Source: a virus. From it: a DNA stretch of 64,000 nt. The translations under genes and the position numbers were made by a program. Where the stretch lies: IMG/VR virus record IMGVR_UViG_3300020109_000011, positions 1 to 64,000 of that record; one strand, given 5' to 3'. Of the stretch, positions 8,568-26,440 are shown piece by piece (the stretch's first letter is position 1; each line of letters begins with the position of its first letter). The notes under the pieces are model-generated. The model saw only the letters and a list, made by a program, of their open reading frames with translations, made no database searches and was not told where the DNA came from.

Positions 8568-8594
8568 GTGTCAACCGGCCGCTACTCTGCTGGC
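8568..8594 (+). promoter_or_regulatory. Leaderless promoter of the portal gene with overlapping operator
   Basis: GTGTCAACC 8568-8576, six bases, TACTCT 8583-8588, six bases, ATG 8595. The site occupies the place of the proximal box of the leftward promoters, but in the opposite orientation. Confidence 0.55.
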
Positions 8595-10244
8595 ATGGCG
8601 GGTGGCGGCGTTCTCCGGCGACGGCGTGAAGCGACCCCGGAGGCGATGACCGCGTCCGCTCAGGTGGTCCGGATGCCCGAGCGGAAGGCCCAGGCGGCGC
8701 CGTACCGGCAGCCGCGCGCCATCGTCGCCTCGGCCGAGCGCGTGGACCTGGACACCGCCTGGACCGAGCGCGCGAACGCCTCCTACAAGTCCTCCCAGGA
8801 CGAGGCCTGGATCGGCTACCAGCGGGTCGGCGAGATCCACTACGGCTTCAACCTGGTCGCCAACGTGCTGTCCCGCCTGCGGGTCTACCCGGCGGCCATC
8901 CCGGAGTCCGAGGAGGCGCCTCAGGGCGCGAAGGACGCCGCCGACCGTGGGCGCATCTCCTCCGACCTGGCGCGCGACGCCGAGGAGGTCATGCGGCAGA
9001 TCACCGGGCCGACCTTCTCCCAGCTGGTCCGCAGCTTCGCGCTCAACATCAACGTGCCGGGCGAGTGCTACCTGGTCCGGCTGAAGGAGCGCACGAAGGA
9101 GGGCAACGAGACCGTCCAGTGGAAGGTCGTCTCCACCGACGAGCTCGTGGTGGACGTGAACGGTGCGACCCTCCGGCCGCTGCGCGGGCAGACCGCGAAG
9201 GAGAAGCGGCTGCCGAAGGGCACCTTCGTCGGTCGCATCTGGCGCTCGCACCCGCGCTACTCCGGGGAGCCGGACTCCAGCCTCATGGGCGTCGCGGACG
9301 CCATCGAGGAGTTGCTGATCCTCCAGCGCCTGGTGCGCTCGGCGACCCGCTCGCGGCTGAACAACGGCCTGCTGTTCCTGCCCGAGGGTCTGCTGTCGGC
9401 CCGGATGCAGATGGCCATGCAGGGCCTGGACGAGGCCGGGAACCCCCTCTCCGACGAGGAGAAGGAGGCGATGGCCAACGACCCCGGCAACCAGCTGGTG
9501 GCCGACCTGATGCAGGCCATCGTCACGGCGGTCAGCGACGAGGGCGACGCCTCGGCCGTGGCCCCGCTGATGGTGACCGGTGAGGGCTCGCTGGCCGAGC
9601 AGATCAAGCACATCACCTTCGAGCGCGGCAGCGACGAGTGGCTGGTCAACCGGACCGAGCGCGCGCTGGAGCGGATCCTCCAGGGCATCGACGTGCCGAA
9701 GGAGGTCGTCACCGGGCTGGCCAACGTGAAGTATTCCAACGCGCTGGTCATCGATGAGAACCTCTACAAGGCCAACATCGAGCCCCTGGCGCTGGTCCTG
9801 GTGGACGCGCTCACCGAGGTGTTCCTGCGGCCCCTGCTGCGGGCCCGGGGCTACGACGAGGCCGACCTGGACCGGATCGTCGTCTGGTACGACCCGAGCG
9901 AGATCGTCACCCGGCCCAACCAGGCCGAGGACGCCAGCGACGGCTACGACCGCTACCTGGTCGGCCCGGGCGCCTGGCGGCGCGAGCACGGCTTCGGCGA
10001 CGACGACGCCCCGACCGAAGCCGAGCTCGGGATGATGCTGCTGACCAGCGGCGCGCCCCTGCCACAGGATGTCCAGATGGCCCTGCTCCAGGCGATGCTG
10101 CCGAAGATCCTCGGCCAGCAGCGCGAGGAGAACATGGGCAACCAGCCCGTGCCGTTCCCCCAGAGCGCGCAGGACGTGCTCTCCCCGACCCCCGAGGCCT
10201 CGGCCAACGTCAGCGACGCAGCCACTGGAGAGAACGCCGCGTGA
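8595..10244 (+). CDS. Portal protein
   Basis: 549 aa ring protein through which DNA passes. I chose ATG 8595, six bases after TACTCT; the GTG at 8568 is in frame but is the operator itself. The region DEAWIGYQRVGEIHYGFNLVANVLSRLRVY near residues 55-90, the long helical middle with RLVRSATRSRLNNGLLFLPEG, and VPKEVVTGLANVKYSNALVIDENLYKANIEPLALVLVD near residues 370-405 are typical of actinophage portals. The last 40 residues are Gln/Pro-rich. Its stop overlaps the giant gene by GTGA. Confidence 0.85.
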   Translation: MAGGGVLRRRREATPEAMTASAQVVRMPERKAQAAPYRQPRAIVASAERVDLDTAWTERANASYKSSQDEAWIGYQRVGEIHYGFNLVANVLSRLRVYPAAIPESEEAPQGAKDAADRGRISSDLARDAEEVMRQITGPTFSQLVRSFALNINVPGECYLVRLKERTKEGNETVQWKVVSTDELVVDVNGATLRPLRGQTAKEKRLPKGTFVGRIWRSHPRYSGEPDSSLMGVADAIEELLILQRLVRSATRSRLNNGLLFLPEGLLSARMQMAMQGLDEAGNPLSDEEKEAMANDPGNQLVADLMQAIVTAVSDEGDASAVAPLMVTGEGSLAEQIKHITFERGSDEWLVNRTERALERILQGIDVPKEVVTGLANVKYSNALVIDENLYKANIEPLALVLVDALTEVFLRPLLRARGYDEADLDRIVVWYDPSEIVTRPNQAEDASDGYDRYLVGPGAWRREHGFGDDDAPTEAELGMMLLTSGAPLPQDVQMALLQAMLPKILGQQREENMGNQPVPFPQSAQDVLSPTPEASANVSDAATGENAA

Positions 10245-13200
10245 GCGAGTCCAAGCACTACACGACCGCGATCCTCGCCGCCGTCCCCGCGACGGACGAC
10301 CCGGTCCACGAGGTCGTCGCCGAGGACGCCCACGTCACCCTCCAGTTCCTGGGCGAGGCGGCCGAGCTCTCCGAGGAGCAGGTCGAGGAGATCACCACCG
10401 CGCTGGAGATGCTGGCCAGCGTCGTCTACCCGTTCGAGGCCGACATCTCGGGCACCGCCGAGCTCGGGCCCGACAAGGCGCAGGTGCTGCTGGTCCAGAG
10501 CGCGCTGCTGACCAAGGTCCGCGAGACGCTGGGCATGGTCGAGGCCGTGTCAACCGCCGTGGCGGCCAGCGACCAGTTCCCGAACTGGATCCCGCACCTG
10601 ACGCTGGCCTACGAGGGCGAGATGCCCGACGTGAGCAGCTACAAGACGGTGACCATCGGCTCGCTGGAGCTCTGGCTGGCCGAGAAGAAGACGGTCTTCC
10701 CACTGGCCCAGCCGAAGGACGCGGTCACCGCCGCCGGGCTCAAGGTCTTCGAGGAGCACCTGCACCCGCGCGGTGCGGACGGCCGCTTCATCGAGAAGTT
10801 CGGCGTGATCAAGTTCCTGACCGCCAAGGGCTGGCAGTACGGCAAGGTCGAGGGGATCTACGAGGAGAACGGCCAGGTCAAGCTGACCGTCAGCCCCTCC
10901 AACCTGTCCGGGAAGACCCACGGCGAGTCCGTCGTGCTGACCCCGAAGCAGGTCTACCGGGCGCCGAAGACCAAGGCGCACCTGCTGGTCAACCAGTCCG
11001 GCGTGACCAAGATCGGTGGCCAGGGCGGCTCCAACCCCGGCGGCCTCTACTCGATGCCCGCCCAGGTCCCGCACCCCGACGGCAGCGTGGAGCTCACGGG
11101 CGAGCAGGACCAGTTCTACGTCAAGACGCCGAAGTCCAAGGCCATCGGTCAGAACGAGGCGCTGACCAACGCGCTGTACGAGCACGCCGGGGTGCCGGTC
11201 CCCGAGGTGGACCTGGCCAGCGACGGGAAGCTCTACAGCAAGATCGTCAAGGGCCAGCAGGACATGGCCCAGCAGCTGTCGAACGCGGACTGGAAGGACC
11301 AGGTCCGGCGGAACTTCGTCGTGGACGCCTGGCTGGCCAACCGCGACGTGTTCGGCATGACCTACGACAACATCCTGACCGACGAGCACGGCGTGCCGTG
11401 GCGCATCGACAACGGCGGCGGGCTGCTCTACCGGGCGCAGGGCGCGAAGAAGACCGACTTCGGCTCGCAGGTCACCGAGCTCGACGCCTTCCGGCAGGGC
11501 AAGAAGGCCGCGATCTTCGGCCCCGAGATGTCGAAGGCCCAGGAGATCGACGGGGCCGAGCGCGTGCTGGCCATCTCCCCGGCCGACATCGATGACCTGG
11601 TCAAGGCCCACGGCCTGCCCAAGTCGCTGGCCGACACCCTGAAGGCCCGGCGGCTCTACATCGCCGACTACTACGGCCTGACGCTGCCGGAGTCCAAGGC
11701 CCCGGCCGAGGCCGAGGGCCCGACCAGCGCGCCGCTGGTGGACGCCCCCGACATCGCCGAGAACGAGGGCCACAACCGCAGTTGGTTCAAGGTCAACCTG
11801 TCCCAGCTGGGCTTCGTGGCGAGCACGGGGGACCTGCTGGAGCTTCCGGACGGGAGCACGAAGCTGCTGGGCGTCGGGGACGACGGCCAGGCGCTGTCGA
11901 TGGTGGGCGCCCAGGCCCAGCTGCTGGGGCTCATGCAGACCATCGGGCCCGAGGCCCAGGTCTACCTGAAGAAGCAGATCGACCCCCAGCAGTCCCGCCC
12001 CGACCACGGGTCGAAGCTGAAGGGCAGCGACCTCACCTCGCAGCGCTGGAAGCGCGGTGACCAGGTCATCGACTCCGACGGCGTGCCGTGGAAGGTGCTG
12101 GGCTGGAACGAGGACACGGGCGCGATGCTCGTGCAGTTCGCCAGTAAGGCCCCGGTGCTGCTGGACACCCACGGCAAGGACAAGGGCGAGACCTTCACCG
12201 TCCAGCGCTGGGACCCGCCTGCGGTTGACACGGCCGAGCCGGTGCAGACCGAGCAGCAGGCCATCGACCAGGTCCAGACCGCCGTCTGGATCAACCCGCC
12301 GCCGGTCAAGATCGAGACGCTGACCGAGCCCGACGACGAGCTCACCACCTACACGCAGAGCGAGAGCGGCACCTACGTCCCGAAGGTCGTCCCGGCCGAG
12401 ATCGTGGACGAGTTCCTGGCGCCGCTCCCCGCCGAGAGCACGAAGACCGGCCAGGCCGCGCAGGCCGAGCAGGCCATCAAGGCCGACCTCAACCAGCCGC
12501 TGCCCACCGGAAGCGGCGCTCCGGCGCCCGCGAAGACCAGCGCGCCCGGCGGCGCGAAGGTCATGGTCATCGGCGACGGCACCGAGGCTGCCACCGGGGA
12601 TTCCGTCACGTCCAAGAAGGACGGCAAGACCTACGTCTTCGTGAAGCCGAAGGGGCAGTACGCGGTCGTCACCGACCCCAACGGCGAGGACCCGACCAAG
12701 CAGCTGCTGAAGCTGGCCAGCACGATGACCCAGCCGGGCAAGGCCCCGGCCGCCGACGCCACCGAGGTCGAGGCGCCGAAGACGGCCACGGGCGAGGTCC
12801 CGCAGCTGGGCATGACCGCGCTGGCCAAGGACGGATGGGCGGGCACCATCACGCTCATCTCGCCGGACGGCAAGTTCGTCTTCATCACCGACGCCAACGG
12901 GAAGCGGAAGCGGAAGTCCACCGGCACCGTCTCCATCACCGGGGGCACCCCGGCGGTGGTTGACACCCCGGCCCCGGCCACGGCTCCGGCCGCTCCGGCC
13001 CCGCTGAAGCCCTACGGCCCGGCCCCGGCCAACGTCCCGGCGGCCAAGGCCGCGCTGGGGGACATCTCCTTCGACCTGGACGACCCGGCCGACCTGGACG
13101 CCGGGGACATGGTGGTCGTGGGCTACGCGGACGGCACCATCGGCCTGGAGCCCTACACCGGCCAGCCGCTGGACAGCCTGCTGAAGAACACCACCGGCAA

Positions 13201-16200
13201 GGTGGCCACCCACAACACGATCACGGTCTACCAGGGCCCGGTGTCGGCCGAGCAGTTCGTGGCGGCCACGGCGGCCAAGGCGGGCTCGCACCCGAAGCAC
13301 TACTTCGTCTTCTGGGACAGCAAGGTCTTCCTGACCGACGGCAAGACCGGGCCCAACGGCGGCCTGATCCTGTGGGACTCGGAGAACCCGAGCACCTACG
13401 CCCTGGAGCTCCCGAAGACCGGCCACGTGCTGGTCATCGCCGACAGCACCCCGGCCAACGAGTCCGGCATCGTGCTGCCCGACTTCGAGACCATCGGCTC
13501 CTCCCAGGTGCTCGACAGCGGCTGGACCCCCGCGCTGCCGCTGTACGGCGACGAGGCGAAGACGTTGGCCGACTGGGGCCAGGACATCGGCGTGGGCTCG
13601 GAGATCTCGCTGGACGGCGAGGAGTGGCTGAAGGTCACCGCCGTCACCGCCAACGGCGTGACGGTGCAGGACTCGAACGAGGCCAACACCTACCTGACCA
13701 CGAAGGCCAGCATGGCGAAGTGGGTCATCAAGGCCCCGCCGATGAAGGACGGTGACGCCCCCAACCCGGCCTTCCAGCCGGGTGCGAAGGACCCGGACCT
13801 GGACGAGCTCCCGGTGCAGTCCGGGAAGAAGAAGATCGCGGACCTGGCCTCGGGTGACGTGGTCATCGACGCCCACGGCGGCACCACGATCATCGACTCG
13901 GTCCTGGTGGACCCCGACGCCCCGGGGATCCACAAGGCCGAGATCACGGCGATGGGGGAGCAGGACACCTTCCCGGCCGATCCCAACCAGGTGCTGGACC
14001 ACCTCGGCAACATCACCGAGGACTTCGTGACGGTCCCGCTGGAGACGGTGCTGGACCACCTCTACCCGGGCGCGCAGTTCCAGATGGCTGGGCAGACCAT
14101 GCAGCTGGTCAGCTACCCGCAGAAGCTGGACAACGGCAACTACCGCTTCGCGGTCATCCCCGAGGGCGAGCCCGGCAGCCCGCTGCTGTACGAGGTCGGT
14201 CAGTACGACCTGGGCGCCGACATCTCCAGCGAGTTCGTCGTCCCGGTCAAGCTGGGCAGCTTCTCCTCCGCGCAGGACGCCGGGGCCGACCTGATCCAGC
14301 TGAACGCGCTGTTCGACGCGGCGGCCACGCAGAAGCAGGACACCCCGGACTACTCGGCGGCGATGACCGACGCGGGGATCCCGTTCGGCACGGCGCAGTA
14401 CCCGATCTACTACGGCGCGCAGTCCGAGACCTTCTTCCGTGCCGCGCACTCCGGCATGGAGGAGTGGGACCCCGAGGGCGGGGTCTGGAACAAGGTCGGC
14501 GGCTCGGTGGCCGAGAAGACCAAGGTCTGGGACGGCGTGCCCTTCACCGGCACGCTGAAGGCGCCCGAGGGCTTCCAGGACAGCACCATCGGGATCACGG
14601 CGGGCCTGACCTGGGCGCTGGAGAACTACAAGCCGAAGCCGGGCGAGACCATCCAGGTGGTCAAGATGCCCCAGCTGTCGGGGAAGTCGCTGCTCATCAG
14701 CTACCCCTACGGTCTGGACGGCCCGGCGCACACGATCCTGGACGACCAGGCGGGTGGCCTGCACGCCTCCACCGACCCCTTCGCCGGGGACTGGAAGGAG
14801 TCCGGCGGCTTCAGCGACTACACGGTCATCCACGACCCGTTCGCCGCTCCCACGCCCGGTCCGCAGCTGACCCACCAGGCCGCACCGCAGCCTCCGGCCG
14901 TGCTGGGCGCCCACCTCCAGACGGCGGGCTACGAGCCGACCCCCGGCGAGCAGTTCATGGTGGTCAACCAGGGCACGGCCACGCGCGTGTGGACCAAGCA
15001 GCCCGACGGGACCTACGTCCGGATCTTCGGCTCCGGCGCGGTCGGCAACACCCCGTGGGACCTGGACGACATCAAGCACACCTTCGAGGGCTGGGACCAG
15101 TTCACCTTCACCTGGCTGCCCGAGGGCGCCGACGCCCCGGCGGCGGTGGCCGGGATGCCCGAGGGCTACGCGCCGTTCGTGCCGGGCGAGGGCCAGTCCC
15201 TGATCAAGGTGACCCTGGGCAACGGCAAGCAGAACGTCTACCTCCAGAAGCAGCCCGAGGCGGGCTGGTACGAGCTCGGCCCCGATGGCGTGGTCAGCGA
15301 GGCCAGCGACGCCGTCAAGAGCAACTTCGTCGTCCAGCAGAAGCTGGCAGGCCAGGGCCTGGGCACCGGCACGGTGAAGTACGAGCTCCTGCACCCGAAG
15401 CCGGAGGGCCAGAAGCAGGCCGACAAGCCGGTGCCGGAGTTCAGCAACTCCACCGGCACGTGGACCCCGGAGGCGGGCCAGAAGGTCGTCGCGCTCACCA
15501 GCTACCCGGGCGACTCGGACCCCTGGTTCTACGTCCAGAGCGAGCCGGGCGGGGACTGGGTGCCGAGCCCGAACACCCCGGACACCACGGCCCAGAACGA
15601 CAGCGCCGTGCAGAACGGGATCTCGGCGGGCCAGAAGGCCTCGGGGTCCAGCTGGACGCTGGTCTACGACGGCGACAGCGGTCAGGCGGCGGTTGACACG
15701 CCGGAGAAGGCGCTCGCGTCCTTCCACCACCACGTCCCGCTGCCCGACACCGAGGTCTACCAGGACGCGCAGGGCGACTACTGGGCCCAGCAGGCACCGG
15801 GCGGGAAGTTCTACTACGTCAACCCCGAGACCGGGACCTACTCCCTCGGTGGGCTGACCGAGCAGGACATCACCGACTCGGCCGAGGACATGACCAAGGT
15901 CTGGCCGACCGAAGACGGTCCGGCCATCGAGACCCTGACCGAGGCCTTCAGCGGGTACACCCCGAAGCCGGGCGACACGGTCATCAAGTGGACTCCGGCC
16001 AGCGGGAACGCGGTGTGGCTGGTCCTGGCCGAGGGCGAGACGGTCTACCACCCGATCTCCAGCGAGGGCGAGATCGTCCAGAGCGGCGGGATCGCGCAGT
16101 ACCAGCTGGACCAGCTGAACGCCCCGGGGTCCAACCAGACCGTCGAGACGGTCTGGCCGCCGAGCGCGCAGGGCAAGGGCATCGAGGTCGGGGGCTACCA

Positions 16201-19200
16201 GACCCAGCCCACCGACAACGTGGTCCAGTTCGTCGCGCAGAGCGGCACCACGGTCACCGCCGTGCAGCAGCCCGACGGCAGCTGGGCGCCCATCATGGGC
16301 GGCCAGCTGGAGCCCGACGACGGCTACTCGCAGAGCACCATCGAGTGGGCGGCCAACCCCGACAGTGGGCTGGAGCTCACCGTGCTCCAGGGCACGCTGA
16401 AGGGCGCCCCGCCTGCCGAGCCCGAGGCCCTGCCGACCACTGTCACGCCCTACGCGGGTGTCAACCAGACCACCGTGCTGGCGCAGACCAACTGGGCGCT
16501 GGAGGACCCGGCTGCGCCCCTGACCGAGTACGGCAAGACCAAGGTCCAGGGCCTGACGCTCCAGCCGGGCGAGTCCGCCTACGTCGCCAGCGGCAACGGC
16601 AGCTACGTCTACGTCCGGGACAGCGCCGGGAACTGGAACTACGTCTACGGCGACAGCGGCGAGCAGAACCTGGAGTTCTCCTCCGACGAGGAGATGGAGC
16701 AGCACCTGGCGAACACCAGCCAGACGCTGAACAAGGTCAAGTTCGCCACGCCGCAGGCTGCCCCGGTCAGCGCGCCGACCACCTACGCCGGTCCGTCCAT
16801 CTCCGGCTGGGCGGCCCAGGGCCTGCCCGACCCGGCCACGATGGGCTTCCTGGGCGGTCCCGAGGGCGCGGCCGGGATGCAGAAGGGCATGTGGCTGTTC
16901 ACCCAGGCCGACAGCAGCCTGGCCCAGGGGAACGGCACCGGCCTCTACGTCCAGCTGGCCGAGGACGTGAAGCCCGGGCAGACCGGCACGGTCAAGGTCC
17001 AGGCCTACGCACCGGTCCAGAGCGGCGACGTGAAGGACATCAAGCACCCCTCCAACGGGGGCACGATCAACTTCAACCTGGGCCAGGTCAAGCACATCTA
17101 CGGGCAGAACGCCTCGGGCATCCCCTCGCCCGACGGTCAGCAGGCCCCGGTGGCCGCCCCGAGCGCCCCGCAGAGCGCCCCGGAGGCCCCGAAGGCTGCC
17201 CCGGCCTACCCCGGCGCCCAGAAGCCCAGCCAGGAGGACATCAACGCCTGGGGCGGCGCGCTCACGAAGGACGGCCACATCCCCACCGCCGGGATGTTCG
17301 TCACCGGCAAGGGCCCGATGTCCGGGAAGATCATCTCGGTCTCGAAGGACAAGACCAAGGCCACCGTGCTCACGGCGGACGGCTCGAAGTCCACGCGGCT
17401 GATCTCGGCGCTGAAGACCGACCCCTCGGCCAACTACTCGGCCTACGCCGCGCCGGTCACGCTGAAGGACATCCCGGGTGGGATGCCGCTGGCGGTTGAC
17501 ACGGTCGCCGAGGCCCTGGAGAAGACCGCGAAGGACGGCAAGTTCCGCGCCATCCTCAACGGCCACCCCGGGGTCAGCCAGGGCCAGATGGTCGTCACGA
17601 AGACCACCGCGCCGTCGGGCAAGGTCTTCAACCGGGTGCACCTGACCCTGACCCCGGCCCAGCGCGCCGAGCTCCTGGCCACCCTGGCCGGGACCGGCGA
17701 GAAGGGCGACTGGGTCAAGTCCTCGAAGATGTCCGACCAGGTGGCGGTCGGCGACCAGCTGCCGATGCGGAAGTCCTCCACGGACAACCCCGACGGGACG
17801 CCGCGCTGGAAGGTGGACCCGGAGACCAAGCCGCCCACGCACACCGTGACGAAGGTCGAGGACGACCCCTCGGGCTCCGGCGTCAAGGTCGTGACGCTGA
17901 AGAACACCGTCACGGGCGAGGAGATCACCAGCCGGTTCCACGCGGGCAAGTCGCTGTCCGTCTACGCCTGGGACCCGAACAAGCCGAAGCCGGTCACGGC
18001 GGGCGCCTTCAGCGTCTCGGAGACGGCCAAGGCGATGGGCTGGCAGTTCGTCACCGACGGCGGCATCTCGGCCATCAAGGGCGGGGCCGACAAGGGCACC
18101 CTCTACAACGAGCCCGGGTCGGCCGTCACGAAGTCCGCGCTGGGGCAGGTCAGCCACAGCTGGAAGACCCTGCGCAACGTCTCCCAGGACGGCGTGGTCA
18201 TCGAGATCGCCGACCCCAAGGGTGCGGACACGCACTCCACCACCGGGGTCACGGTCATCTCGCTGCCCGAGGGCGCCGACGAGAAGGCCCTGGGCGCGGC
18301 GCTGTCGAAGATGGGCATCGACTACCGGCCGATGAACCAGGACGACGCCAAGGTGGCCGTGCGCGGCGTGCTGCGCACGCTGCTGTCGCTGGACACCTCG
18401 GACGTGGACACCCCGAAGCACTACACCGACGAGCAGCTGTTCAAGCAGGCCGGTCAGACGATGGGGATCAGCGACCTCGGCTGGCAGGACGTGCTGGTGG
18501 GCGTGGACGAGAGCACGGGCAAGACCAGCTTCTTCTGGTCCGACCGGGCGCGCGCCGCGCTGGCCGGGAAGGTCAGCTACAACCTGGTCTACCGGGCCGC
18601 GAGCACCGGCACCGCCGCGCAGATCGTGTCAACCGTGAAGTACGGCTCGGCGAGCTCGATCCTGAAGAAGACCACCGGGATGCTCGATGGCTCCGGCTCG
18701 GTGGGCAACGGCGCCAGCGCGAGCTCGGACAACTCCAACCACGCCGGGCACGGCTCCTACGCCTCGGCCAGCAAGGAGTTCAAGCTGCCCAGCACGAACG
18801 CCCAGGCGGGCTACAAGGGCTCGGTCGGGATCATGGTCTACCACCGGCCCGAGGCCGTGCTGGGCCGGATCATGGACTACCGGGTGTCCGCCTCGGACGC
18901 CTTCGGGATGGGCCACGGCTCGGGCTCGGACCACCTGAAGTACGCCACCTCGATGGGCAAGGTGAAGGACTACTTCCTGGGCGGCGGCCTGCCGACCGAG
19001 GCCGTGGGCTTCATCGCCGTCCAGGACTCCGGCGAGCGGGCCAAGGCCATCGAGCAGCTGAAGGCCGAGGGCTTCGGCGTGATCAACGGCCGCCCGGTCG
19101 AGGACATCGTGATCACGAAGCAGAAGGCCGCCACGCTCACCCCGGACGACCTGCCGCCCGTGACCATCCCCGCGAACGCCCGGCCGATCCTGGATCTGCC

Positions 19201-19270
19201 GGTCTCCTACGACGCCCCTGCTGCCCCGGCTGGCGCCGAGGGCCCGACTGGTGGAGAGGCTGCCGCCTGA
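10241..19270 (+). CDS. Giant multidomain head-operon protein: 2H phosphoesterase, kinase-like domain, beta repeats
   Basis: 3009 aa (about 315 kDa), from GTG 10241. Residues 1-150: a 2H phosphoesterase (LigT/CPDase-like) with HVT at 30-32 and HLT at 119-121. Residues 172-190: the HPRGADGRFIEKF peptide shared with the genes at 20211 and 24404. Residues about 245-490: a HipA/PI-kinase-like fold, with FYVKTPKSK (Lys near 293), DAWLANRDVFGMTYDN (catalytic-loop D and N, about 359-374) and RIDNGGGL (389). From about 500 to 2400 there are Ala/Pro linkers and at least seven Y-x-P-x-PGE/D repeats of about 80-110 residues. Residues about 2800-2970: an unrecognised Gly/Ser/His-rich C-terminal domain. 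Probably a polyvalent protein loaded into the head and injected with the DNA; that is inference. Seven operator-like sites lie inside. Confidence 0.8.
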   Translation: MSESKHYTTAILAAVPATDDPVHEVVAEDAHVTLQFLGEAAELSEEQVEEITTALEMLASVVYPFEADISGTAELGPDKAQVLLVQSALLTKVRETLGMVEAVSTAVAASDQFPNWIPHLTLAYEGEMPDVSSYKTVTIGSLELWLAEKKTVFPLAQPKDAVTAAGLKVFEEHLHPRGADGRFIEKFGVIKFLTAKGWQYGKVEGIYEENGQVKLTVSPSNLSGKTHGESVVLTPKQVYRAPKTKAHLLVNQSGVTKIGGQGGSNPGGLYSMPAQVPHPDGSVELTGEQDQFYVKTPKSKAIGQNEALTNALYEHAGVPVPEVDLASDGKLYSKIVKGQQDMAQQLSNADWKDQVRRNFVVDAWLANRDVFGMTYDNILTDEHGVPWRIDNGGGLLYRAQGAKKTDFGSQVTELDAFRQGKKAAIFGPEMSKAQEIDGAERVLAISPADIDDLVKAHGLPKSLADTLKARRLYIADYYGLTLPESKAPAEAEGPTSAPLVDAPDIAENEGHNRSWFKVNLSQLGFVASTGDLLELPDGSTKLLGVGDDGQALSMVGAQAQLLGLMQTIGPEAQVYLKKQIDPQQSRPDHGSKLKGSDLTSQRWKRGDQVIDSDGVPWKVLGWNEDTGAMLVQFASKAPVLLDTHGKDKGETFTVQRWDPPAVDTAEPVQTEQQAIDQVQTAVWINPPPVKIETLTEPDDELTTYTQSESGTYVPKVVPAEIVDEFLAPLPAESTKTGQAAQAEQAIKADLNQPLPTGSGAPAPAKTSAPGGAKVMVIGDGTEAATGDSVTSKKDGKTYVFVKPKGQYAVVTDPNGEDPTKQLLKLASTMTQPGKAPAADATEVEAPKTATGEVPQLGMTALAKDGWAGTITLISPDGKFVFITDANGKRKRKSTGTVSITGGTPAVVDTPAPATAPAAPAPLKPYGPAPANVPAAKAALGDISFDLDDPADLDAGDMVVVGYADGTIGLEPYTGQPLDSLLKNTTGKVATHNTITVYQGPVSAEQFVAATAAKAGSHPKHYFVFWDSKVFLTDGKTGPNGGLILWDSENPSTYALELPKTGHVLVIADSTPANESGIVLPDFETIGSSQVLDSGWTPALPLYGDEAKTLADWGQDIGVGSEISLDGEEWLKVTAVTANGVTVQDSNEANTYLTTKASMAKWVIKAPPMKDGDAPNPAFQPGAKDPDLDELPVQSGKKKIADLASGDVVIDAHGGTTIIDSVLVDPDAPGIHKAEITAMGEQDTFPADPNQVLDHLGNITEDFVTVPLETVLDHLYPGAQFQMAGQTMQLVSYPQKLDNGNYRFAVIPEGEPGSPLLYEVGQYDLGADISSEFVVPVKLGSFSSAQDAGADLIQLNALFDAAATQKQDTPDYSAAMTDAGIPFGTAQYPIYYGAQSETFFRAAHSGMEEWDPEGGVWNKVGGSVAEKTKVWDGVPFTGTLKAPEGFQDSTIGITAGLTWALENYKPKPGETIQVVKMPQLSGKSLLISYPYGLDGPAHTILDDQAGGLHASTDPFAGDWKESGGFSDYTVIHDPFAAPTPGPQLTHQAAPQPPAVLGAHLQTAGYEPTPGEQFMVVNQGTATRVWTKQPDGTYVRIFGSGAVGNTPWDLDDIKHTFEGWDQFTFTWLPEGADAPAAVAGMPEGYAPFVPGEGQSLIKVTLGNGKQNVYLQKQPEAGWYELGPDGVVSEASDAVKSNFVVQQKLAGQGLGTGTVKYELLHPKPEGQKQADKPVPEFSNSTGTWTPEAGQKVVALTSYPGDSDPWFYVQSEPGGDWVPSPNTPDTTAQNDSAVQNGISAGQKASGSSWTLVYDGDSGQAAVDTPEKALASFHHHVPLPDTEVYQDAQGDYWAQQAPGGKFYYVNPETGTYSLGGLTEQDITDSAEDMTKVWPTEDGPAIETLTEAFSGYTPKPGDTVIKWTPASGNAVWLVLAEGETVYHPISSEGEIVQSGGIAQYQLDQLNAPGSNQTVETVWPPSAQGKGIEVGGYQTQPTDNVVQFVAQSGTTVTAVQQPDGSWAPIMGGQLEPDDGYSQSTIEWAANPDSGLELTVLQGTLKGAPPAEPEALPTTVTPYAGVNQTTVLAQTNWALEDPAAPLTEYGKTKVQGLTLQPGESAYVASGNGSYVYVRDSAGNWNYVYGDSGEQNLEFSSDEEMEQHLANTSQTLNKVKFATPQAAPVSAPTTYAGPSISGWAAQGLPDPATMGFLGGPEGAAGMQKGMWLFTQADSSLAQGNGTGLYVQLAEDVKPGQTGTVKVQAYAPVQSGDVKDIKHPSNGGTINFNLGQVKHIYGQNASGIPSPDGQQAPVAAPSAPQSAPEAPKAAPAYPGAQKPSQEDINAWGGALTKDGHIPTAGMFVTGKGPMSGKIISVSKDKTKATVLTADGSKSTRLISALKTDPSANYSAYAAPVTLKDIPGGMPLAVDTVAEALEKTAKDGKFRAILNGHPGVSQGQMVVTKTTAPSGKVFNRVHLTLTPAQRAELLATLAGTGEKGDWVKSSKMSDQVAVGDQLPMRKSSTDNPDGTPRWKVDPETKPPTHTVTKVEDDPSGSGVKVVTLKNTVTGEEITSRFHAGKSLSVYAWDPNKPKPVTAGAFSVSETAKAMGWQFVTDGGISAIKGGADKGTLYNEPGSAVTKSALGQVSHSWKTLRNVSQDGVVIEIADPKGADTHSTTGVTVISLPEGADEKALGAALSKMGIDYRPMNQDDAKVAVRGVLRTLLSLDTSDVDTPKHYTDEQLFKQAGQTMGISDLGWQDVLVGVDESTGKTSFFWSDRARAALAGKVSYNLVYRAASTGTAAQIVSTVKYGSASSILKKTTGMLDGSGSVGNGASASSDNSNHAGHGSYASASKEFKLPSTNAQAGYKGSVGIMVYHRPEAVLGRIMDYRVSASDAFGMGHGSGSDHLKYATSMGKVKDYFLGGGLPTEAVGFIAVQDSGERAKAIEQLKAEGFGVINGRPVEDIVITKQKAATLTPDDLPPVTIPANARPILDLPVSYDAPAAPAGAEGPTGGEAAA
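10547..10555 (+). promoter_or_regulatory. Stoperator-like site in the giant gene
   Basis: Exact GTGTCAACC inside the 2H domain region. Confidence 0.65.
12223..12231 (-). promoter_or_regulatory. Stoperator-like site in the giant gene
   Basis: Exact GGTTGACAC on the + strand. Confidence 0.65.
12958..12966 (-). promoter_or_regulatory. Stoperator-like site in the giant gene
   Basis: Exact GGTTGACAC, at a V-D-T-P inside an Ala/Pro linker. Confidence 0.65.
15691..15699 (-). promoter_or_regulatory. Stoperator-like site in the giant gene
   Basis: Exact GGTTGACAC, again encoding V-D-T-P. Confidence 0.65.
16458..16466 (+). promoter_or_regulatory. Stoperator-like site in the giant gene
   Basis: Exact GTGTCAACC. 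Confidence 0.65.
17494..17502 (-). promoter_or_regulatory. Stoperator-like site in the giant gene
   Basis: Exact GGTTGACAC. Confidence 0.65.
18626..18634 (+). promoter_or_regulatory. Stoperator-like site in the giant gene
   Basis: Exact GTGTCAACC near the 3' end. Confidence 0.65.
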
Positions 19271-20139: not shown

Positions 20140-20210
20140 CTGACCAGGTCCGCGCGACGGCCGGGCTGTTCTCGGACATCTGCGCGAGTGGGAGAACCCC
20201 ACCCGAAGGG

Positions 20211-21656
20211 ATGTTCCGTGCGCTCATCGCTGCCGCGCGTGTCACTGGCCTGTTGCAGGATCCTGCTGTGCTGACGGCGGCCAAGTGGCAGGACTGGCTG
20301 CACCCGCGCGGCAAGGACGGGCGCTTCATCGAGAAGGGCTCGTTCGTCAACATCTTCGCCGACCCCAACGCCTGGACCGGCGACCGCACGGCTGTCCGGC
20401 GGCGGGCGAAGATCGTGGAGCTCCGGCCCGAGGGCGCCTACGTCGCCTACCAGGACACCGAGGGCAAGCCGCTGGACCCCGACCCGAGCTCGGGCTTCCC
20501 CGACCTCATCCCGGTGGACCAGCTGGGCCAGAAGGTCTCCACGGCGCCGCAGGCCATCGCGCACCTCCAGCCCGGCGAGTCCGCCGCCAAGGAGGTCAAG
20601 GACGCGCTGGTCCCCGCGCTGGGCCTGGACGAGTGGAAGGCCGAGATCCAGACCCTGTCCGACGGGCTGGCCGAGACCTTCCCCGAGCAGGCCGACATCG
20701 TGTCAACCGGCCAGGACAAGATCACCGACGAGGCCTTCCTGGAGCACCAGCGCTACGTCACGCTGGCCACGAAGATGGGCCTGCACGGGCCCGGCCGGTC
20801 GATGTCCATCGACGGCTCGATGAAGGACTCCTTCGGCCTGTGGTCGGAGGAGATGCGCGAGGTCTTCGAGGGCATGGTCAACGCCGCCTACGACGAGCTC
20901 ACCGCCGGGCAGACCAAGCCCCGGGACTCCCGGGCCATCGTGCTGGGCGGTCTGCCGGGCGCCGGGAAGTCCTCCACGCTGGACGCGATGGCCGAGTCCA
21001 AGGTCTTCAACAAGGACGAGTGGATCATCGCCAACCCCGACTGGTTCAAGGACCGGATCATCGCCCAGGGGCTGGCCCCGCAGATCCACGGCCTGGCCCC
21101 GGCCGAGACGGCCAGCTTCATCCACGAGGCCTCGTCCGAGATGAACCACATGCTGGAGCAGCTGCTGACCGTCGAGGGCTACAACGTCATCTTCGACATC
21201 ACGCTGGGCTCCAGCTTCTGGACCGGCGAGACGATCAACCGGCTGGAGAGCCTGGACTACTCCATCGACGGGATCTTCGTGGACGTGCCGCCGACCACCG
21301 CGCGTACCCGCTCCCAGTCCCGGCACCGCTCCGGCCTGGACGCGCTGCGCACCGGCCAGTCCCGGCGGACCGACGACCCCGAGCTCTCCAACGGCGGCCG
21401 GGTGGTCCCCGAGGCCGTGCTGGCCGCCGCCGAGATCGACAAGAAGGACCCCGACGCCGAGACCTACAACTCGGCGAACGCCCGGAACTTCGACCAGATC
21501 AAGGGCCAGTTCGCCCGCTGGGCGGTCTGGGACAACTCGGGCGATTCCCCGGAGTTCATCGACGGCTCCGGCATCGGCCCGGACGACCCCCAGTCGATGC
21601 CCGGCTACTACCCGTCCGGCCCGACCGTCGCTGCTGTCCTGGAGGCCTCTGCATGA
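20211..21656 (+). CDS. Zeta-toxin-type kinase with HPRG tag
   Basis: 481 aa from ATG 20211. GAAGGG directly abuts the start, so the ribosome site is poor, but upstream in-frame codons would overlap the previous gene. Residues 31-41 are HPRGKDGRFIE, matching residues 175-185 of the giant protein. The kinase starts near 243: Walker A GGLPGAGKSS (about 245-254), NPDWFKDRI, EMNHMLEQLLTVEGYNVIFDITLG and the arginine-rich TTARTRSQSRHRSG followed by GGRVVPEAVL. That order is characteristic of zeta/UDP-GlcNAc kinases, which phosphorylate a nucleotide sugar and block cell-wall synthesis. No epsilon antitoxin is visible nearby. The N-terminal 200 residues are not recognised. Confidence 0.75.
   Translation: MFRALIAAARVTGLLQDPAVLTAAKWQDWLHPRGKDGRFIEKGSFVNIFADPNAWTGDRTAVRRRAKIVELRPEGAYVAYQDTEGKPLDPDPSSGFPDLIPVDQLGQKVSTAPQAIAHLQPGESAAKEVKDALVPALGLDEWKAEIQTLSDGLAETFPEQADIVSTGQDKITDEAFLEHQRYVTLATKMGLHGPGRSMSIDGSMKDSFGLWSEEMREVFEGMVNAAYDELTAGQTKPRDSRAIVLGGLPGAGKSSTLDAMAESKVFNKDEWIIANPDWFKDRIIAQGLAPQIHGLAPAETASFIHEASSEMNHMLEQLLTVEGYNVIFDITLGSSFWTGETINRLESLDYSIDGIFVDVPPTTARTRSQSRHRSGLDALRTGQSRRTDDPELSNGGRVVPEAVLAAAEIDKKDPDAETYNSANARNFDQIKGQFARWAVWDNSGDSPEFIDGSGIGPDDPQSMPGYYPSGPTVAAVLEASA
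20700..20708 (+). promoter_or_regulatory. Stoperator-like site in the zeta-type kinase gene
   Basis: Exact GTGTCAACC followed by GG. Confidence 0.65.
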
Positions 21657-21991
21657 CCACCCCCGAGCGCTCCGAAGTGCCTCAGGGCGAGAACGTCCAG
21701 GCGGTGCGGGACGCCATCGAGGCCATGCGGACCGGCTCCGGCGACTTCGAGGGGCTGCGCGCGGCCGTCTCCGGCGCCCGCTTCGCGGTGCGCCCGACGG
21801 CCCGCAGCGAGGAGGACGTGGCCGCCGCCTGGGACTACGTCCCGCTGCCGGACTCCTTCACCGATACCGTGGAGGCGGCGAGATGGCAGAAGATCATCAC
21901 GCCTGAGCAGGTGGGGGAGCTCCGGAGCATGGCCCAGTTCGTCGCAGAGGCGCCCAGCCGGATGCCGCAGGAAGACCGGGGGGCAGCCTGA
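21653..21991 (+). CDS. Hypothetical protein, 112 aa
   Basis: ATG 21653 overlaps the previous stop by ATGA, and its own stop overlaps the next ATG (TGATG). Mostly helical and acidic, with DAIEAMRTGSGDFEGLRAAVSG and a C-terminal TPEQVGELRSMAQFVAEAP. Not recognised. It may be a small partner of the protease fusion that follows. Confidence 0.6.
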   Translation: MTTPERSEVPQGENVQAVRDAIEAMRTGSGDFEGLRAAVSGARFAVRPTARSEEDVAAAWDYVPLPDSFTDTVEAARWQKIITPEQVGELRSMAQFVAEAPSRMPQEDRGAA

Positions 21992-24366
21992 TGACCAGCC
22001 TGATGATGTCGGGGTACGGCCTGAAGAAGCTGCCGACCCGTTCGGTGCGCGAGGCGGCCAGGGAGTCCTCCGACCCCTACGCCAGCCTGGTGTCAACCGG
22101 CAACGTCCGGCCCTGGGACCTGTTCAGCATCCAGGCCAGCTGCGGGATCCCCGGCGCGCGTGAGTGGGCCGACCGCACGCTGGACGCCGTGCTCGCCGCC
22201 GCGCTGGAGCCGGTGAAGCCCGCGCTGGACTGCGAGGACTGCATCGACCTCGGCTTCTACGGCCGGGTGGACCGCTCCGACCCCGACACCCTCACCGCGC
22301 TGCTGCGCCGGGTGGGTGACGGCGGGTACGAGCAGCTGACCGTCAGCGGCACCTGGCAGGCCTACGAGATCGTGGCCGACCAGCAGCTGGAGATCCTGAC
22401 CCGCGAGCTCGCCGGGGACCTGGCCGAGGCCATCACGGCCGGGGCCAGCGGGCTCACGCGCCGGTACTTCTGGCCCGCCGCGTTCCTGCCGCCGAGCGCG
22501 ATGATCGCGGCCGTCCCGGCCGACCAGGTCACCGCCGCGCTGCCCGAGACGGTGGCCGTGGACAGCCAGGACGCGCTGGACCCCGAGCTCGCATCCGAGC
22601 AGGGCTGGGTGGCCTACGCGGTCGTGGACGACCTGGACCCCGGTGCCGTGCTCGACCTCATCCGGCTGCGCCGGGGAGCGACCGGGCCCGAGCTCGTGGC
22701 CTACCGCAACGGCGCCTGGAGCGAGGCGCCGGAGATCCTGGCCGACCTCCAGGGCGTGCAGCCCCCGCCGCTGGTGGAGCTCGACCAGGCCCAGCAGGCC
22801 AGCGTGCTGGAGCAGATCGGCGGCGTGCCCGAGGGCAGCGAGGACTCCGGCGACCCGGGCGAGGGCCTGGACGAGGCCGACAAGGTTCCGCCGCTGGCCG
22901 CTGCCGCCTTCGGCCGGAAGACCCCGGACCGCCTGGGCGCCCTGCTGGCCGACGCGCCCCTGACCGTGAGCCCGGACCCGCGCGCCGAGAAGCTGCGCCG
23001 GTACTGGACCACCGGGAAGGGCGCGGCGAAGATCCGCTGGGGCACCCCCGGCGACTGGACCCGGTGCTACCGCCAGCTGCGCAAGCACATGGGGCTGCGG
23101 GCCAAGGGCTACTGCCAGAACCTGCACAAGCGCGCCACCGGCATGTGGGCCGGTGACCGAGGCAACCGGGGCGGCGGACGTGCTGCCGCCCTGGCGGCGG
23201 CTGGAACCCCAGCTGCCCAGTCGATGGAGGTCGCGCTGGTCGCGGCCGTGTCAACCGGGCGCTGGTTCTGCCCGGAGGGAGGCACCACCATGCTGAAGGA
23301 CGGCATCTACGTGGAGGGCGGCGAGAACGTCGCGCTGCTGCGGACGCTCACCGCCGGGGGCTTCCCGGTCGCGCCGCCGGACGAGTGGTTCGAGAACCCC
23401 CAGCTGGACGGCCCGACGCCGCTCACGGTAGACGACGACGGCCGGGTCTACGGCCACATCGCCACCCGCGACGTGTCGCACATCGGCCTGCCGGGCCGGG
23501 TCAAGGCGCCGATCTCGAAGACGGACTACGCCTACTTCAAGACCGGCCAGCTGGTGACCGCCAGCGGTCGGAAGGTCAACGTCGGGCAGCTGACCCTGGC
23601 CGGGGGCCACGCGCCCCTCCAGGCCGACGCAGCGGCGGCCGTGGCCCACTACGACAACACCGCCAGCGCGGTGGCCGACCTCAACGCCGGGGACGACCAG
23701 TGGGGCATCTGGGTGGCCGGGGCCGTGCGCCCGGAGGTCACCCCCTCCCAGCTGCGCACGCTGCGCGCCAGCGCGCCGTCGGGCGACTGGCGGCCGATCA
23801 ACGGTCGGCTGGAGCTCGTGGCCTGCTGCCAGGTCAACGTGCCCGGCTTCCCGGTCGTGCGCGCCCGGGTGGCCAGCGGCGCCATCACCAGCCTGGTGGC
23901 GGCCGGTGCGGGGCCGCTCTACGCCCGGCGCCTGGCGCTGATGGCCGACGCGGCCACGGCCGAGCGCATCACCGCGCTGGAGAACGCCGTCTTCGCCCAG
24001 CTGACCGCCGGGCTGGAGGACCCCAGCGAGGTCATCGTGGCCGACGGGGAGGGCGAGGGCCTGGATGGCGGGGAGCCGATCTCCGAGGAGCAGGCAGCGG
24101 CCGAGGGCCTGGAGGACGAGGACCCGGCGGCCGAGCCGGAGATCAGCGACGCCGTGAAGCGCGCACGGGAGGCCGTGGCCGCGCGGAAGGCGGCCCAGCC
24201 TGCTGAGGCGGCCGTGGAGGCCACGGAGGAGCCTCCGGCACCCGAGGAGACCAGCACCGACCCCGCCAAGGCCACGGACGAGGACAAGGAGCGCGCCGAC
24301 CGGCTGGCCGCGCTGCGCGCGCGGGTGCACGGCAACCGCGAGCCGGTCGCCGCCTCCGGCTCCTGA
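21991..24366 (+). CDS. Head maturation protease fused to an N-terminal domain
   Basis: 791 aa from ATG 21991. The N-terminal half (1-430) contains LDCEDCIDLGFYGRVDR, an Asp/Gly-rich region and the block KLRRYWTTGKGAAKIRWGTP with GYCQNLHKRATGMW, which I recognise from actinophage head proteins without known function. The C-terminal half has YGHIATRDVSHIG, GHAPLQADAAAAVAHYDNTASA, WGIWVAGAVRPEVT and LELVACCQVNVPGFPV, the usual pattern of the actinophage capsid maturation protease. It should cleave scaffold parts and, probably, tagged internal proteins. A strong GGAGGGAGG plus in-frame ATG at 23290 may give the protease alone (358 aa). The tail is acidic and helical. Confidence 0.75.
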   Translation: MTSLMMSGYGLKKLPTRSVREAARESSDPYASLVSTGNVRPWDLFSIQASCGIPGAREWADRTLDAVLAAALEPVKPALDCEDCIDLGFYGRVDRSDPDTLTALLRRVGDGGYEQLTVSGTWQAYEIVADQQLEILTRELAGDLAEAITAGASGLTRRYFWPAAFLPPSAMIAAVPADQVTAALPETVAVDSQDALDPELASEQGWVAYAVVDDLDPGAVLDLIRLRRGATGPELVAYRNGAWSEAPEILADLQGVQPPPLVELDQAQQASVLEQIGGVPEGSEDSGDPGEGLDEADKVPPLAAAAFGRKTPDRLGALLADAPLTVSPDPRAEKLRRYWTTGKGAAKIRWGTPGDWTRCYRQLRKHMGLRAKGYCQNLHKRATGMWAGDRGNRGGGRAAALAAAGTPAAQSMEVALVAAVSTGRWFCPEGGTTMLKDGIYVEGGENVALLRTLTAGGFPVAPPDEWFENPQLDGPTPLTVDDDGRVYGHIATRDVSHIGLPGRVKAPISKTDYAYFKTGQLVTASGRKVNVGQLTLAGGHAPLQADAAAAVAHYDNTASAVADLNAGDDQWGIWVAGAVRPEVTPSQLRTLRASAPSGDWRPINGRLELVACCQVNVPGFPVVRARVASGAITSLVAAGAGPLYARRLALMADAATAERITALENAVFAQLTAGLEDPSEVIVADGEGEGLDGGEPISEEQAAAEGLEDEDPAAEPEISDAVKRAREAVAARKAAQPAEAAVEATEEPPAPEETSTDPAKATDEDKERADRLAALRARVHGNREPVAASGS
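22090..22098 (+). promoter_or_regulatory. Stoperator-like site in the protease gene
   Basis: Exact GTGTCAACC. Confidence 0.65.
23248..23256 (+). promoter_or_regulatory. Stoperator-like site upstream of the internal protease start
   Basis: Exact GTGTCAACC, 34 bases upstream of the internal ATG 23290. Confidence 0.65.
23275..23292 (+). promoter_or_regulatory. Internal ribosome site and in-frame ATG
   Basis: GGAGGGAGG (from 23276) followed by ATG 23290 in the frame of the protease fusion. It would yield residues 434-791, which is just the protease domain and acidic tail. Confidence 0.5.
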
Positions 24367-24403
24367 CCTCCGACCCGGCCTGCCCACCCCCGAGAGGACC
24401 CGC

Positions 24404-26440
24404 GTGCTGACGACCGCCGAGCGCCTGGATGTGCTGGAGCGCGCGGTGACCGCCGCCTTCGACCCCAGCCAGCCGCGCGACAAGAACGGCCGCTGGATCG
24501 ACACGTTCTCCTCGGTGCACTTCTCCACCGGCCTCATGGGGAAGAAGCGGGCAGGCCGGGTCGCCGGTCCCACCGCCGGGAAGCCCGGCTACTTCGACGT
24601 GGTGGAGAGCGGCAGCGGCAAGCGCACCAGCATCCGCTCGGACAAGCTGGAGGTCATCGACGCCCGGGCCCGGCTGGACACCGGCCTGGACGAGGCGACT
24701 CGGGGGCTGATCGACCGGACCAGCCAGCGTCTGGGCCCTGGGGCACCGTCGGCGCCCGCGCCCGCGCCTGCACCGGCTCCCGTGCCGGAGGCGCCCCGGC
24801 CGGTTGACACGCCCGCCCCGGTCATCGACATGGCCCAGCGGGCCCCGAGCCTGCCCGGTCGCAAGACCGCCGAGGAGGCTCCGGCCGGGGAGCGGTTCCA
24901 CGCGAAGGGACCCGACGGGCAGGGCCTCCAGCTGCTGCTGGCGGGCAAGGCCCGTCGGTCCGACGGCGGCTGGACGATCATCGGCCACGACCAGGAGGGC
25001 AACTCCCACCGCGTCGTGGTCCCGCCCGGCGGCACGCTGCGGACGATCCAGCCCGACGCACCCTGGCCGGACACCCGCAACGTGCCCGAGCCCCCGAAGG
25101 ACCCCCAGAAGCCGGGCACGCCGCGCGGCAACGCCACGCTGGAGGATCTGGAGGCCGAGGCCGCCGCCAACGGCGAGATCGTGCTGTACCACGGCGGCCT
25201 GCCCGAGGGCACCGGGATGGACGACATCGACCTGGGCCGCGCCGGGAGCCAGCAGAACAAGAAGGGGAAGTCCTACGGCGGCTTCTACCTGACCGACCCC
25301 GGCTCGAAGGACTGGTCCACCGACTACGCGCGGGGCCGCAACGGGGTCATGCACGGCTTCCGGGTCAGCAAGGACGCGAAGGTCGGCGACCTGGGCAGCA
25401 AGAACATCGACCGCCTGTCGGCGAACGAGCGCGCGTCCCTGGCCGAGCAGTTCGACGTGGTCAAGGGCAAGGACACGATGGGCCGCGACCAGTACGTCCT
25501 GCTCAACAAGGACGCCATCTCGGGCGTGGGCGAGACCAACGTGGGGCTGGGCCGCACGGGCAACGTCGGGACCCGGCCGGTGGCCGCCGCACTGCTGGCT
25601 GCGCCGCCCCCGGCTGGGGGCCCGGCGCACCGGATCGCGGCCGACTACGGCGCCAAGAGCAAGAAGAAGGGCCGGAAGGTCGCCACGAAGGCCGGGGAGA
25701 AGCGCTACGGCCTGCCCATCGGCACCCCGCTGGGCCAGGGCAAGGCGAAGAACGAGCAGGACGCCTACAAGCGCTTCACCGACCAGAAGACCCCGGCCGA
25801 CCTCGCGCGAACCGCCTCGTACATGAGCAACGGCGACCTGGCCCTGACGGCCAAGGCCGTGTTCGGCGTGAAGGGCCAGAACGAGTGGGACAAGGCCGCG
25901 CAGATCGCGCTGGTGAAGGAGCTCGCCCAGCGGGGGATCGACCCGCACGGGCTGGGCTACGAGGGCGGCTTCGTCGCGCTGAACCCGAACCCGAAGAAGG
26001 ACCCGACGATCAAGGCGGCGAAGAAGCCGAAGGCCTCCGAGCTCCCTGACAGCGTGGACGCCGAGAAGCTGTCCGACGCGGACCTGAGCGTGCTGGCCGA
26101 AGCTGGCTGGAAGGGCCGGGCCGACGACCAGCGCGAAGCTCTCTACGCCCCGGAGAATCCCGGACCGCTGCCGTCCGGCCGCCTGAGCCAGCCCGCCAAG
26201 GAGATGCTGCTGGCCCAGGGCTGGCGGACACAGGGCGACCAGCTGGTGCCGCCGAAGACGCAGGTCGAGAAGGAGAACGAGCGCCTGGCCCGGGAGGCCG
26301 AGAGCACGGCCAAGAAGGCCGAGACCGAGCGGAAGAAGGCCGAGGCCGAGGCCGAGAAGGCGCGCAAGGCGGCCGAGCGCCAGGCCGAGCGCGAGCGGCT
26401 GGCGGCCGAGGAGTTGGCGACCATCCCCCGGCGCCGCTGA
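24404..26440 (+). CDS. ADP-ribosyltransferase-like protein with HPR-type tag
   Basis: 678 aa from GTG 24404, with GAGAGGA upstream. Residues about 21-30 read SQPRDKNGRW, the divergent form of the tag in the giant and zeta-type proteins. After an Ala/Pro linker, residues about 263-370 show IVLYHGG, GGFYLTDPG with STDYARGRNG, and RDQYVLLNKDAI. That is the order expected of an ART fold (R/H strand, aromatic strand, Q/E-x-(E/Y) loop), as in phage-borne ADP-ribosyltransferases. A helical region with NGDLALTAKAVFG follows, then a highly charged coiled coil (about 600-670). NAD+ would be the substrate; the target is unknown. The usual ARTT Glu is not certain, so activity needs testing. Confidence 0.55.
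   Translation: MLTTAERLDVLERAVTAAFDPSQPRDKNGRWIDTFSSVHFSTGLMGKKRAGRVAGPTAGKPGYFDVVESGSGKRTSIRSDKLEVIDARARLDTGLDEATRGLIDRTSQRLGPGAPSAPAPAPAPAPVPEAPRPVDTPAPVIDMAQRAPSLPGRKTAEEAPAGERFHAKGPDGQGLQLLLAGKARRSDGGWTIIGHDQEGNSHRVVVPPGGTLRTIQPDAPWPDTRNVPEPPKDPQKPGTPRGNATLEDLEAEAAANGEIVLYHGGLPEGTGMDDIDLGRAGSQQNKKGKSYGGFYLTDPGSKDWSTDYARGRNGVMHGFRVSKDAKVGDLGSKNIDRLSANERASLAEQFDVVKGKDTMGRDQYVLLNKDAISGVGETNVGLGRTGNVGTRPVAAALLAAPPPAGGPAHRIAADYGAKSKKKGRKVATKAGEKRYGLPIGTPLGQGKAKNEQDAYKRFTDQKTPADLARTASYMSNGDLALTAKAVFGVKGQNEWDKAAQIALVKELAQRGIDPHGLGYEGGFVALNPNPKKDPTIKAAKKPKASELPDSVDAEKLSDADLSVLAEAGWKGRADDQREALYAPENPGPLPSGRLSQPAKEMLLAQGWRTQGDQLVPPKTQVEKENERLAREAESTAKKAETERKKAEAEAEKARKAAERQAERERLAAEELATIPRRR
24802..24810 (-). 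promoter_or_regulatory. Stoperator-like site in the ART-like gene
   Basis: Exact GGTTGACAC, encoding V-D-T-P in the Pro-rich linker. Confidence 0.65.

Follow-up and report, generated by a model that had tools for sequence, protein, structure and literature searches.

An HPRG-type peptide shared by effector-like proteins encoded in the head gene region of an actinophage-type virus

Head gene region of the virus record

The first 64,000 nucleotides of the IMG/VR virus record IMGVR_UViG_3300020109_000011, which has a total length of 86,483 bp, contain a head gene region in which three otherwise unrelated, effector-like proteins carry the same short peptide with the core HPRG. In the following, this stretch of 64 kb is called the window and the peptide is called the tag. 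Statements about the phage as a whole rest on the window and on searches of its own record. The portal protein encoded in the window is most similar to portals of phages of Gordonia, Microbacterium, Arthrobacter, and other actinobacteria. On the + strand, the genes are arranged in the order MuF-like minor head protein, portal, a giant protein of 3009 amino acids (aa), an untagged 289-aa protein, a zeta-type kinase, the head maturation protease, an ADP-ribosyltransferase (ART)-like protein, and the major capsid protein (MCP). Effector-type domains (2H, zeta, ART-like) are thus encoded beside the portal, MuF, protease, and MCP. The sequence-only reading of this DNA had assigned the three tagged proteins to one operon with the protease; all three open reading frames (ORFs) lie on the + strand within the portal-protease-MCP run. 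The features of the region are as follows; a slash marks a putative cut.

4695..6695, + strand: ORF of the MuF-like minor head protein (clade MuF profile, E=5.5e-16)
about 6444-6674, + strand: MuF domain of this ORF (PF04233, E=0.0088)
8568..10244, + strand: portal protein (phrog_776, E=1.4e-99)
8646-8657 and 8721-8732, + strand: putative protease sites EAMTAS/AQVV and AIVAS/AERV at the portal N-terminus, conserved in relatives
10241..19270, + strand: giant tagged protein, 3009 aa (PF13563, E=3.9e-8; AlphaFold2 model; Foldseek)
10724..10735, + strand: putative prohead-protease site VTAA of the giant protein, residues 162-165, conserved in homologs
10748..10801, + strand: extended tag of the giant protein, FEEHLHPRGADGRFIEKF, with the core HPRG at residues 175-178
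10805..10960, + strand: SH3-like beta barrel of the giant protein directly after the tag (AlphaFold2 strands)
20211..21656, + strand: zeta-type kinase, P-loop domain at about 20913-21416 (PF06414, E=6.8e-16)
20211..20282, + strand: predicted helical leader of the zeta-type kinase, MFRALIAAARVTGLLQDPAVLTAA, ending in the putative site LTAA at 20271-20282 (low model confidence)
20301..20339, + strand: tag of the zeta-type kinase, HPRGKDGRFIEKG, with W at position -5
21991..24366, + strand: head maturation protease polyprotein without HPRG tag, protease domain at about 23347-23991 (phrog_18402, E=2.9e-53)
24404..26440, + strand: ART-like tagged protein, ART-like region at about 25169-25543 (65% identity to Atuin gp71)
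24404..24457, + strand: leader of the ART-like protein, VLTTAERLDVLERAVTAA, ending in the putative site VTAA at 24446-24457
24467..24508, + strand: divergent tag of the ART-like protein, SQPRDKNGRWIDTF
27255..29096, + strand: MCP, homologous to the annotated MCPs of Atuin, GMA2, and Phendrix
27591-27602 and 27753-27764, + strand: putative sites VAAS and VTAS before the mature core of the MCP (linker statistics)

The shared peptide

In a six-frame scan of the window, the strict motif was found in three ORFs only. It reads HPRGADGRFIEKF at residues 175-187 of the giant protein and HPRGKDGRFIEKG at residues 31-43 of the zeta-type kinase, counted from the ATG at 20211; an in-frame GTG at 20136 could lengthen the latter ORF. 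The copy of the ART-like protein, SQPRDKNGRWIDTF at residues 22-35, is a divergent variant (QPRDxxGRW) with the aromatic residue at position -4. Residue positions and scan thus confirm that three otherwise unrelated proteins share one peptide. The positions originally given for the giant protein and the kinase are correct, while the ART copy is shifted by one residue from residues 21-34. The assumed placement near the N-terminus does not apply to the giant protein, in which the tag follows a complete 2H domain (PF13563, residues 28-130). Over all proteins, the start of the tag varies from residues 175, 31, and 22 in the window to anything between residue 7 and beyond residue 1000 elsewhere.

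A search of viral contigs with a degenerate DNA pattern for HPRGxDGRF yielded 82 loci, compared to 2 for the reversed peptide, and chance similarity was rejected on the basis of this control. Nearly all of the 68 distinct motif copies lie inside long open frames, and 58 of them have W or F exactly at position -5, which was not part of the search pattern. The short form of the motif is W/F-D-P-x-x-HPRG-x-DGRFI, the extended consensus is [WF][DN][PE]xxHPRGxDGRF[IV][ES][KR], and a broader consensus is [WF]-[DN]-[PE]-x-x-[HQ]-P-R-[GD]-x-x-G-[RKQ]-[FW]. Self-cleavage at Asp-Pro was considered and rejected, as DP is not conserved at the respective tag positions. In homologs of the kinase and of the giant protein, which are otherwise 28-73% identical, the tag is the best-conserved stretch and nearly invariant. 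No family covering the tag was found in Pfam scans of the head proteins of the window and of eight tagged proteins, a search of the PDB sequences with the consensus gave no meaningful match, and a literature search with the motif strings retrieved no paper.

Domain context of the tag

The giant protein consists of a 2H phosphoesterase domain, the putative site, the tag, an SH3-like barrel, a HipA/HipT-like kinase fold, and a long C-terminal part. In its AlphaFold2 model (pLDDT 78), the tag is followed by a five-stranded SH3-like barrel (strands 30-35, 38-50, 53-61, 72-74, and 79-81 of the modelled piece) and then by the kinase fold. According to Foldseek, this fold is nearest to HipT/HipA and other kinases, with the best template modelling (TM) score for a kinase obtained with HipT. 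The second kinase belongs to the zeta toxin family of P-loop kinases (PF06414, 58.7 bits at a cut-off of 22.3). Its model suggests two leader helices, tag, barrel, and kinase, but is of low confidence (mean pLDDT 63), so that the claim of a barrel rests mainly on the giant protein. In both models, the shared segment is longer than 13 residues and runs on into the small barrel. Gp73 of phage Sixama has no 2H domain and shows the order of a leader of about 20 aa, LTAA, tag, barrel, and kinase; the giant protein therefore looks like a protein of this type with a 2H domain added in front.

The ART-like protein is 65% identical to Atuin gp71 and 31-36% identical to PLxRFG/DarB-like proteins, and it had no Pfam match. 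Its designation as ART-like (24404-26440) is based on the DarB-like/PLxRFG similarity and on motif reading. In Arthrobacter phage Atuin, gp71 (L085, 21569-30910) is annotated as DNA helicase; record positions 34048-34422 encode the residues that are 65% identical to the ART-like region of the window, and no HPRG tag was found in the region scanned. C-terminal to the ART-like region, at about 25650-25740 of the window, a different junction peptide of roughly the form K-V-x-[TS]-x-x-GEK[KR]Y-x-x-PIG is present, as is also the case in L050. Sixama and Forza have this peptide after LVAS/LVAA in their ART genes (L137 gp75; L138 gp80).

The models raise the question of whether the tag is simply structural, i.e., an N-cap or hinge in the form of a hairpin packed on the SH3-like barrel that was spread by recombination among head-operon proteins and has no targeting function. 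Both AlphaFold models have a hairpin-like tag pattern just before the barrel, tag and barrel occur together in many proteins of the clade of the window, and tags are located at domain junctions. In other clades, however, tags directly precede an ART-like region, low-complexity sequence, or the protein end, and pure linkers are rarely so conserved or so confined to head regions. A solely structural role is thus considered unlikely. The notion that the tag is the start of a single homologous domain was rejected, as it is also found without a barrel.

Occurrence in viruses and cellular genomes

The peptide occurs beside portal genes in other phages as well, where the sequence-only reading had proposed to search for it, and it is located there on effector-type chains or on chains containing portal or MuF. 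In the 26 viral records in which a portal was detectable by PF04860 or phrog_776, the median distance between tag and portal was 1.95 kb, compared to 11.0 kb for random positions; none of 5000 random placements had a median below 4.3 kb. The tag lay within 5 kb of the portal in 20 of these records. A search of the remaining tagged records with the portal family PF05133 gave no matches. MuF was detectable in 37 of 50 tagged records. Several records encode single chains in which MuF or portal comes first and the tag follows on the C-terminal side, namely portal-MuF-tag in L128, Portal_Mu-tag in L121, and MuF-tag in L014, L016, and L072. In the Gordonia phages Phendrix, Sixama, and Forza, the first large gene following the portal carries the tag and reads leader-LTAA-tag-barrel in all three, and in Streptomyces phage Gilgamesh the tag is on gp48, behind a portal-MuF fusion. 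In the archaeal tailed virus HHTV-1, gp13, just upstream of a gpF-like gene, carries the tag. This protein (L135, 8614-11916) has the tag SWNPALHPRGPDGKFVERPYDIP, and its likeness to L008, L047, and L075 extends beyond the core (ERP[WFY]xxP).

Up to four tags per chain occur in one other viral clade, several of them directly before a YHGT (ART-like) segment. In L115-L117 and L134 (the clade of G003, G024, G037, and G047), the number of tagged effector-like proteins is unusually high, and a chain may contain as many as four tags; variant tags of this clade have the form QPRGPKGSPxGGQW, and the tagged set includes one HNHPSG (JAB-like) protein as well as kinase-like proteins. A peptide QPRDKxGRFASKHRK at the C-terminus of a protein of about 200 aa in L111 (788-1393) and L112 (1561-2139) is encoded on the strand opposite to the head genes; it lacks the upstream aromatic pattern and is probably unrelated to the tag.

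The HPRGxDGRF DNA pattern matched 112 stretches in bacterial and archaeal genomes with a total of 257 Gb. Two of these were judged genuine, one in a contig of a planctomycete metagenome-assembled genome and the other in a MuF-like prophage protein, in which it immediately follows the CRC end; the remaining stretches were judged to be chance translations. A stricter pattern had no matches in the cellular genomes. The tag is thus virus-specific, portal-linked, and repeatedly fused to head proteins across bacterial viruses and at least one archaeal virus.

This distribution bears on a further explanation, namely that the tag itself is a docking peptide for capsid entry that binds a conserved head component such as portal, MuF, or the inner capsid wall, while the upstream site would be incidental or clade-specific. 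Such a logic would be comparable to that of encapsulin cargo peptides and would agree with a short linear motif that is strongly conserved in many unrelated chains at N-terminal, internal, and C-terminal positions. It would also fit the frequent presence of MuF in tagged records, as well as a joint action of tag modules and MuF or portal, which is suggested by their fusion in some phages and their separation in others. However, several chains have three or four tags, which docking would not need, portal-MuF-tag fusions already are head proteins, the portal families that accompany the motif differ strongly, and no binding partner was found. Docking as the means of entry is therefore regarded as possible but rather doubtful.

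A candidate protease site upstream of the tag

In the window, the tag is preceded by a short string that might be cut by the prohead protease. The three junctions read DAVTAA/GLKVFEEHLHPRG in the giant protein, AVLTAA/KWQDWLHPRG in the zeta-type kinase, and RAVTAA/FDPSQPRD in the ART-like protein. All following string statistics cover the actinophage-type clade of the window. A string [VLIM][TVA]A[AS] was found at most 16 residues upstream of 16 of 27 clade tags, at a background of 1.3% per 17-mer, with counts that include homologous, non-independent sequences and a binomial P value that is indicative only. The spacing between string and tag varies. In the giant protein, just two such strings occur in 3009 aa, and one of them stands immediately before the tag.

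The same string recurs in other head proteins. The MCP has an N-terminal helical domain and an acidic linker ahead of its mature core, and this linker contains the string in 11 of 11 scorable clade MCPs (15 sites, compared to 1.9 expected after shuffling). An N-terminal propeptide is removed from the MCP by every prohead protease studied to date (PMC7411985). The portal N-terminus has the string in 14 of 25 cases, compared to 1.7 expected, while others have slightly deviating strings such as LTGA and ATAS, and the protease polyprotein has [VL][TVA]A[AS] strings at domain junctions. Single occurrences prove nothing, since the string is short and alanine-rich; what counts is that it recurs at corresponding positions. 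A candidate site motif is thus common to the MCP, portal, protease, and tagged proteins of one phage, and the simplest reading is that [VLIM][TVA]A[AS] represents the putative maturation site of the clade. In the protease polyprotein, a second small conserved module (phrog_6439, ...YWTTGKGAAKIRWGTPGDWTRCYRQL...GYCQNLHKRATG; 23000-23250 of the window, residues about 330-395) follows LAAA and lies ahead of the protease domain; among relatives, this module recurs on head-operon proteins of L037, L050, L073, L084, L101, L102, and Forza.

The close spacing of tag and putative cleavage string in the clade could also mean that the tag is a recognition element of the prohead protease, providing an exosite or prime-side specificity. 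The portal, MCP, and protease of the clade carry the string without a tag, however. This explanation appears very improbable, and an exosite was rejected because the tag is absent from portal and MCP.

Proposed role of the tag

The reading preferred here, with a probability of roughly 0.55, is that the tag marks the start of the cargo: a leader would be followed by a prohead-protease site and then by the tag, which would be kept on the mature, head-borne effector. The tag would be located at the start of the effector module of proteins encoded next to the portal gene, and the order proposed for the clade is leader or upstream domain, [VLIM][TVA]A[AS], tag, small SH3-like barrel, and enzyme. 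Entry into the prohead may be mediated by the leader, which would be a predicted helix of about 20 aa in the zeta-type kinase, the ART-like protein, and Sixama gp73 and the 2H domain in the giant protein, or by the link of the gene to portal/MuF. The maturation protease, which would also process portal and MCP, would then cut upstream of the tag and leave it near the new N-terminus of the mature effectors (kinase fold, zeta kinase, ART-like). The retained tag may dock, hold, or orient the cargo, most plausibly at the portal vertex near the portal-MuF complex, and the effectors would enter the cell together with the DNA. Cleavage, packaging, docking at the portal vertex, and ejection with the DNA are all inferred for the tagged proteins.

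Besides the non-independence of the counts, several observations weigh against the cargo-start reading. Folded regions of the MCP and of tail proteins contain the string as well, and 11 of the 27 clade tags lack a strict string within 16 aa; for several of the 11, it is located at a greater distance upstream or present as a relaxed version (VIAA, VVAG). Tags of other clades are preceded by different residues (e.g., xxK[WF]D). A role at the start of a cargo is at odds with tags at the very end of the chain (L020, L038), and a chain in which the tag is joined to portal or MuF does not require a packaging signal of its own.

The sequence-only reading had taken the peptide as a mark for capsid entry, protease processing, or both. 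Processing gains indirect support from the upstream string shared with MCP and portal, while a function as entry signal is less supported. The comparison with the cleaved targeting signal of phage T4 was not borne out in this form: the tag follows the putative cut, can occur up to four times per chain, and is frequently found inside a chain or at its C-terminus.

Comparison with known head-cargo systems

The capsid targeting sequence (CTS) of T4 is an N-terminal propeptide of about 10-20 aa that is removed by the protease (PMC7411985, PMC9026906). The internal proteins IPI-III and Alt resemble the tagged proteins in having a short recurring feature on unrelated chains, a protease cleavage between signal and cargo (putative in the tagged proteins), and an ART among the cargo. 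In contrast to T4, where the CTS is cut at a motif specific for gp21, the putative upstream string ends in A/S, and the conserved tag would be downstream of the cut and stay with the cargo. The tag itself is probably not CTS-like: it does not take the extreme N-terminal position on the cargo that characterizes this type of signal, and it would be kept, whereas the T4 CTS is removed. The putative cut upstream of the tag leaves the leader of about 20 aa as a possible CTS analogue. No HPRG-type tag was found in the T4 head proteins checked.

The Dar system of phage P1 is similar in that large multidomain polyvalent proteins encoded near the portal are delivered from the capsid, and a reporter is localised by the first part of DarB alone (PMC9024508). 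DarB, DarA, DdrA, DdrB, Hdf, Ulx, portal, and Pro of P1 have no HPRG-type tag. In SPN3US/phiKZ, the ejection proteins have propeptides that are cleaved by the prohead protease, and this one enzyme recognises the same short motif in MCP, portal, and injected proteins, but the cut occurs after AxE instead of the proposed [VLIM][TVA]A[AS], and no shared retained tag was found described in the available parts of PMC7411985 and PMC9026906. MuF polymorphic toxins and polyvalent proteins are a further parallel, with 2H, ART, zeta, and RNase-type domains fused to MuF/portal or encoded beside virion genes; the available text of PMC5512222 and PMC5576092 contains no mention of a shared HPRG-type junction motif. 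The closest functional relatives of the putative system are thus the head-cargo systems of T4, P1, and SPN3US, and by the features compared it is a member of none.

Implications

Only few signals are known to select phage proteins for transport in the capsid. A virus-specific, portal-linked motif that is found from actinophages to an archaeal virus would allow candidate injected effectors to be listed from genomes, and [VLIM][TVA]A[AS] provides a concrete candidate for the maturation site of a large group of actinobacteriophages. A more speculative extension, which is put forward here only tentatively, is that W/F-D-P-x-x-HPR-x-x-x-GRF serves tailed bacterial and archaeal viruses as a general cargo code, i.e., a peptide that is retained and recognised at the portal-MuF complex. 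If this were true, interchangeable effector modules would ride in the head and be injected, and injected effectors would be readable from genomes.

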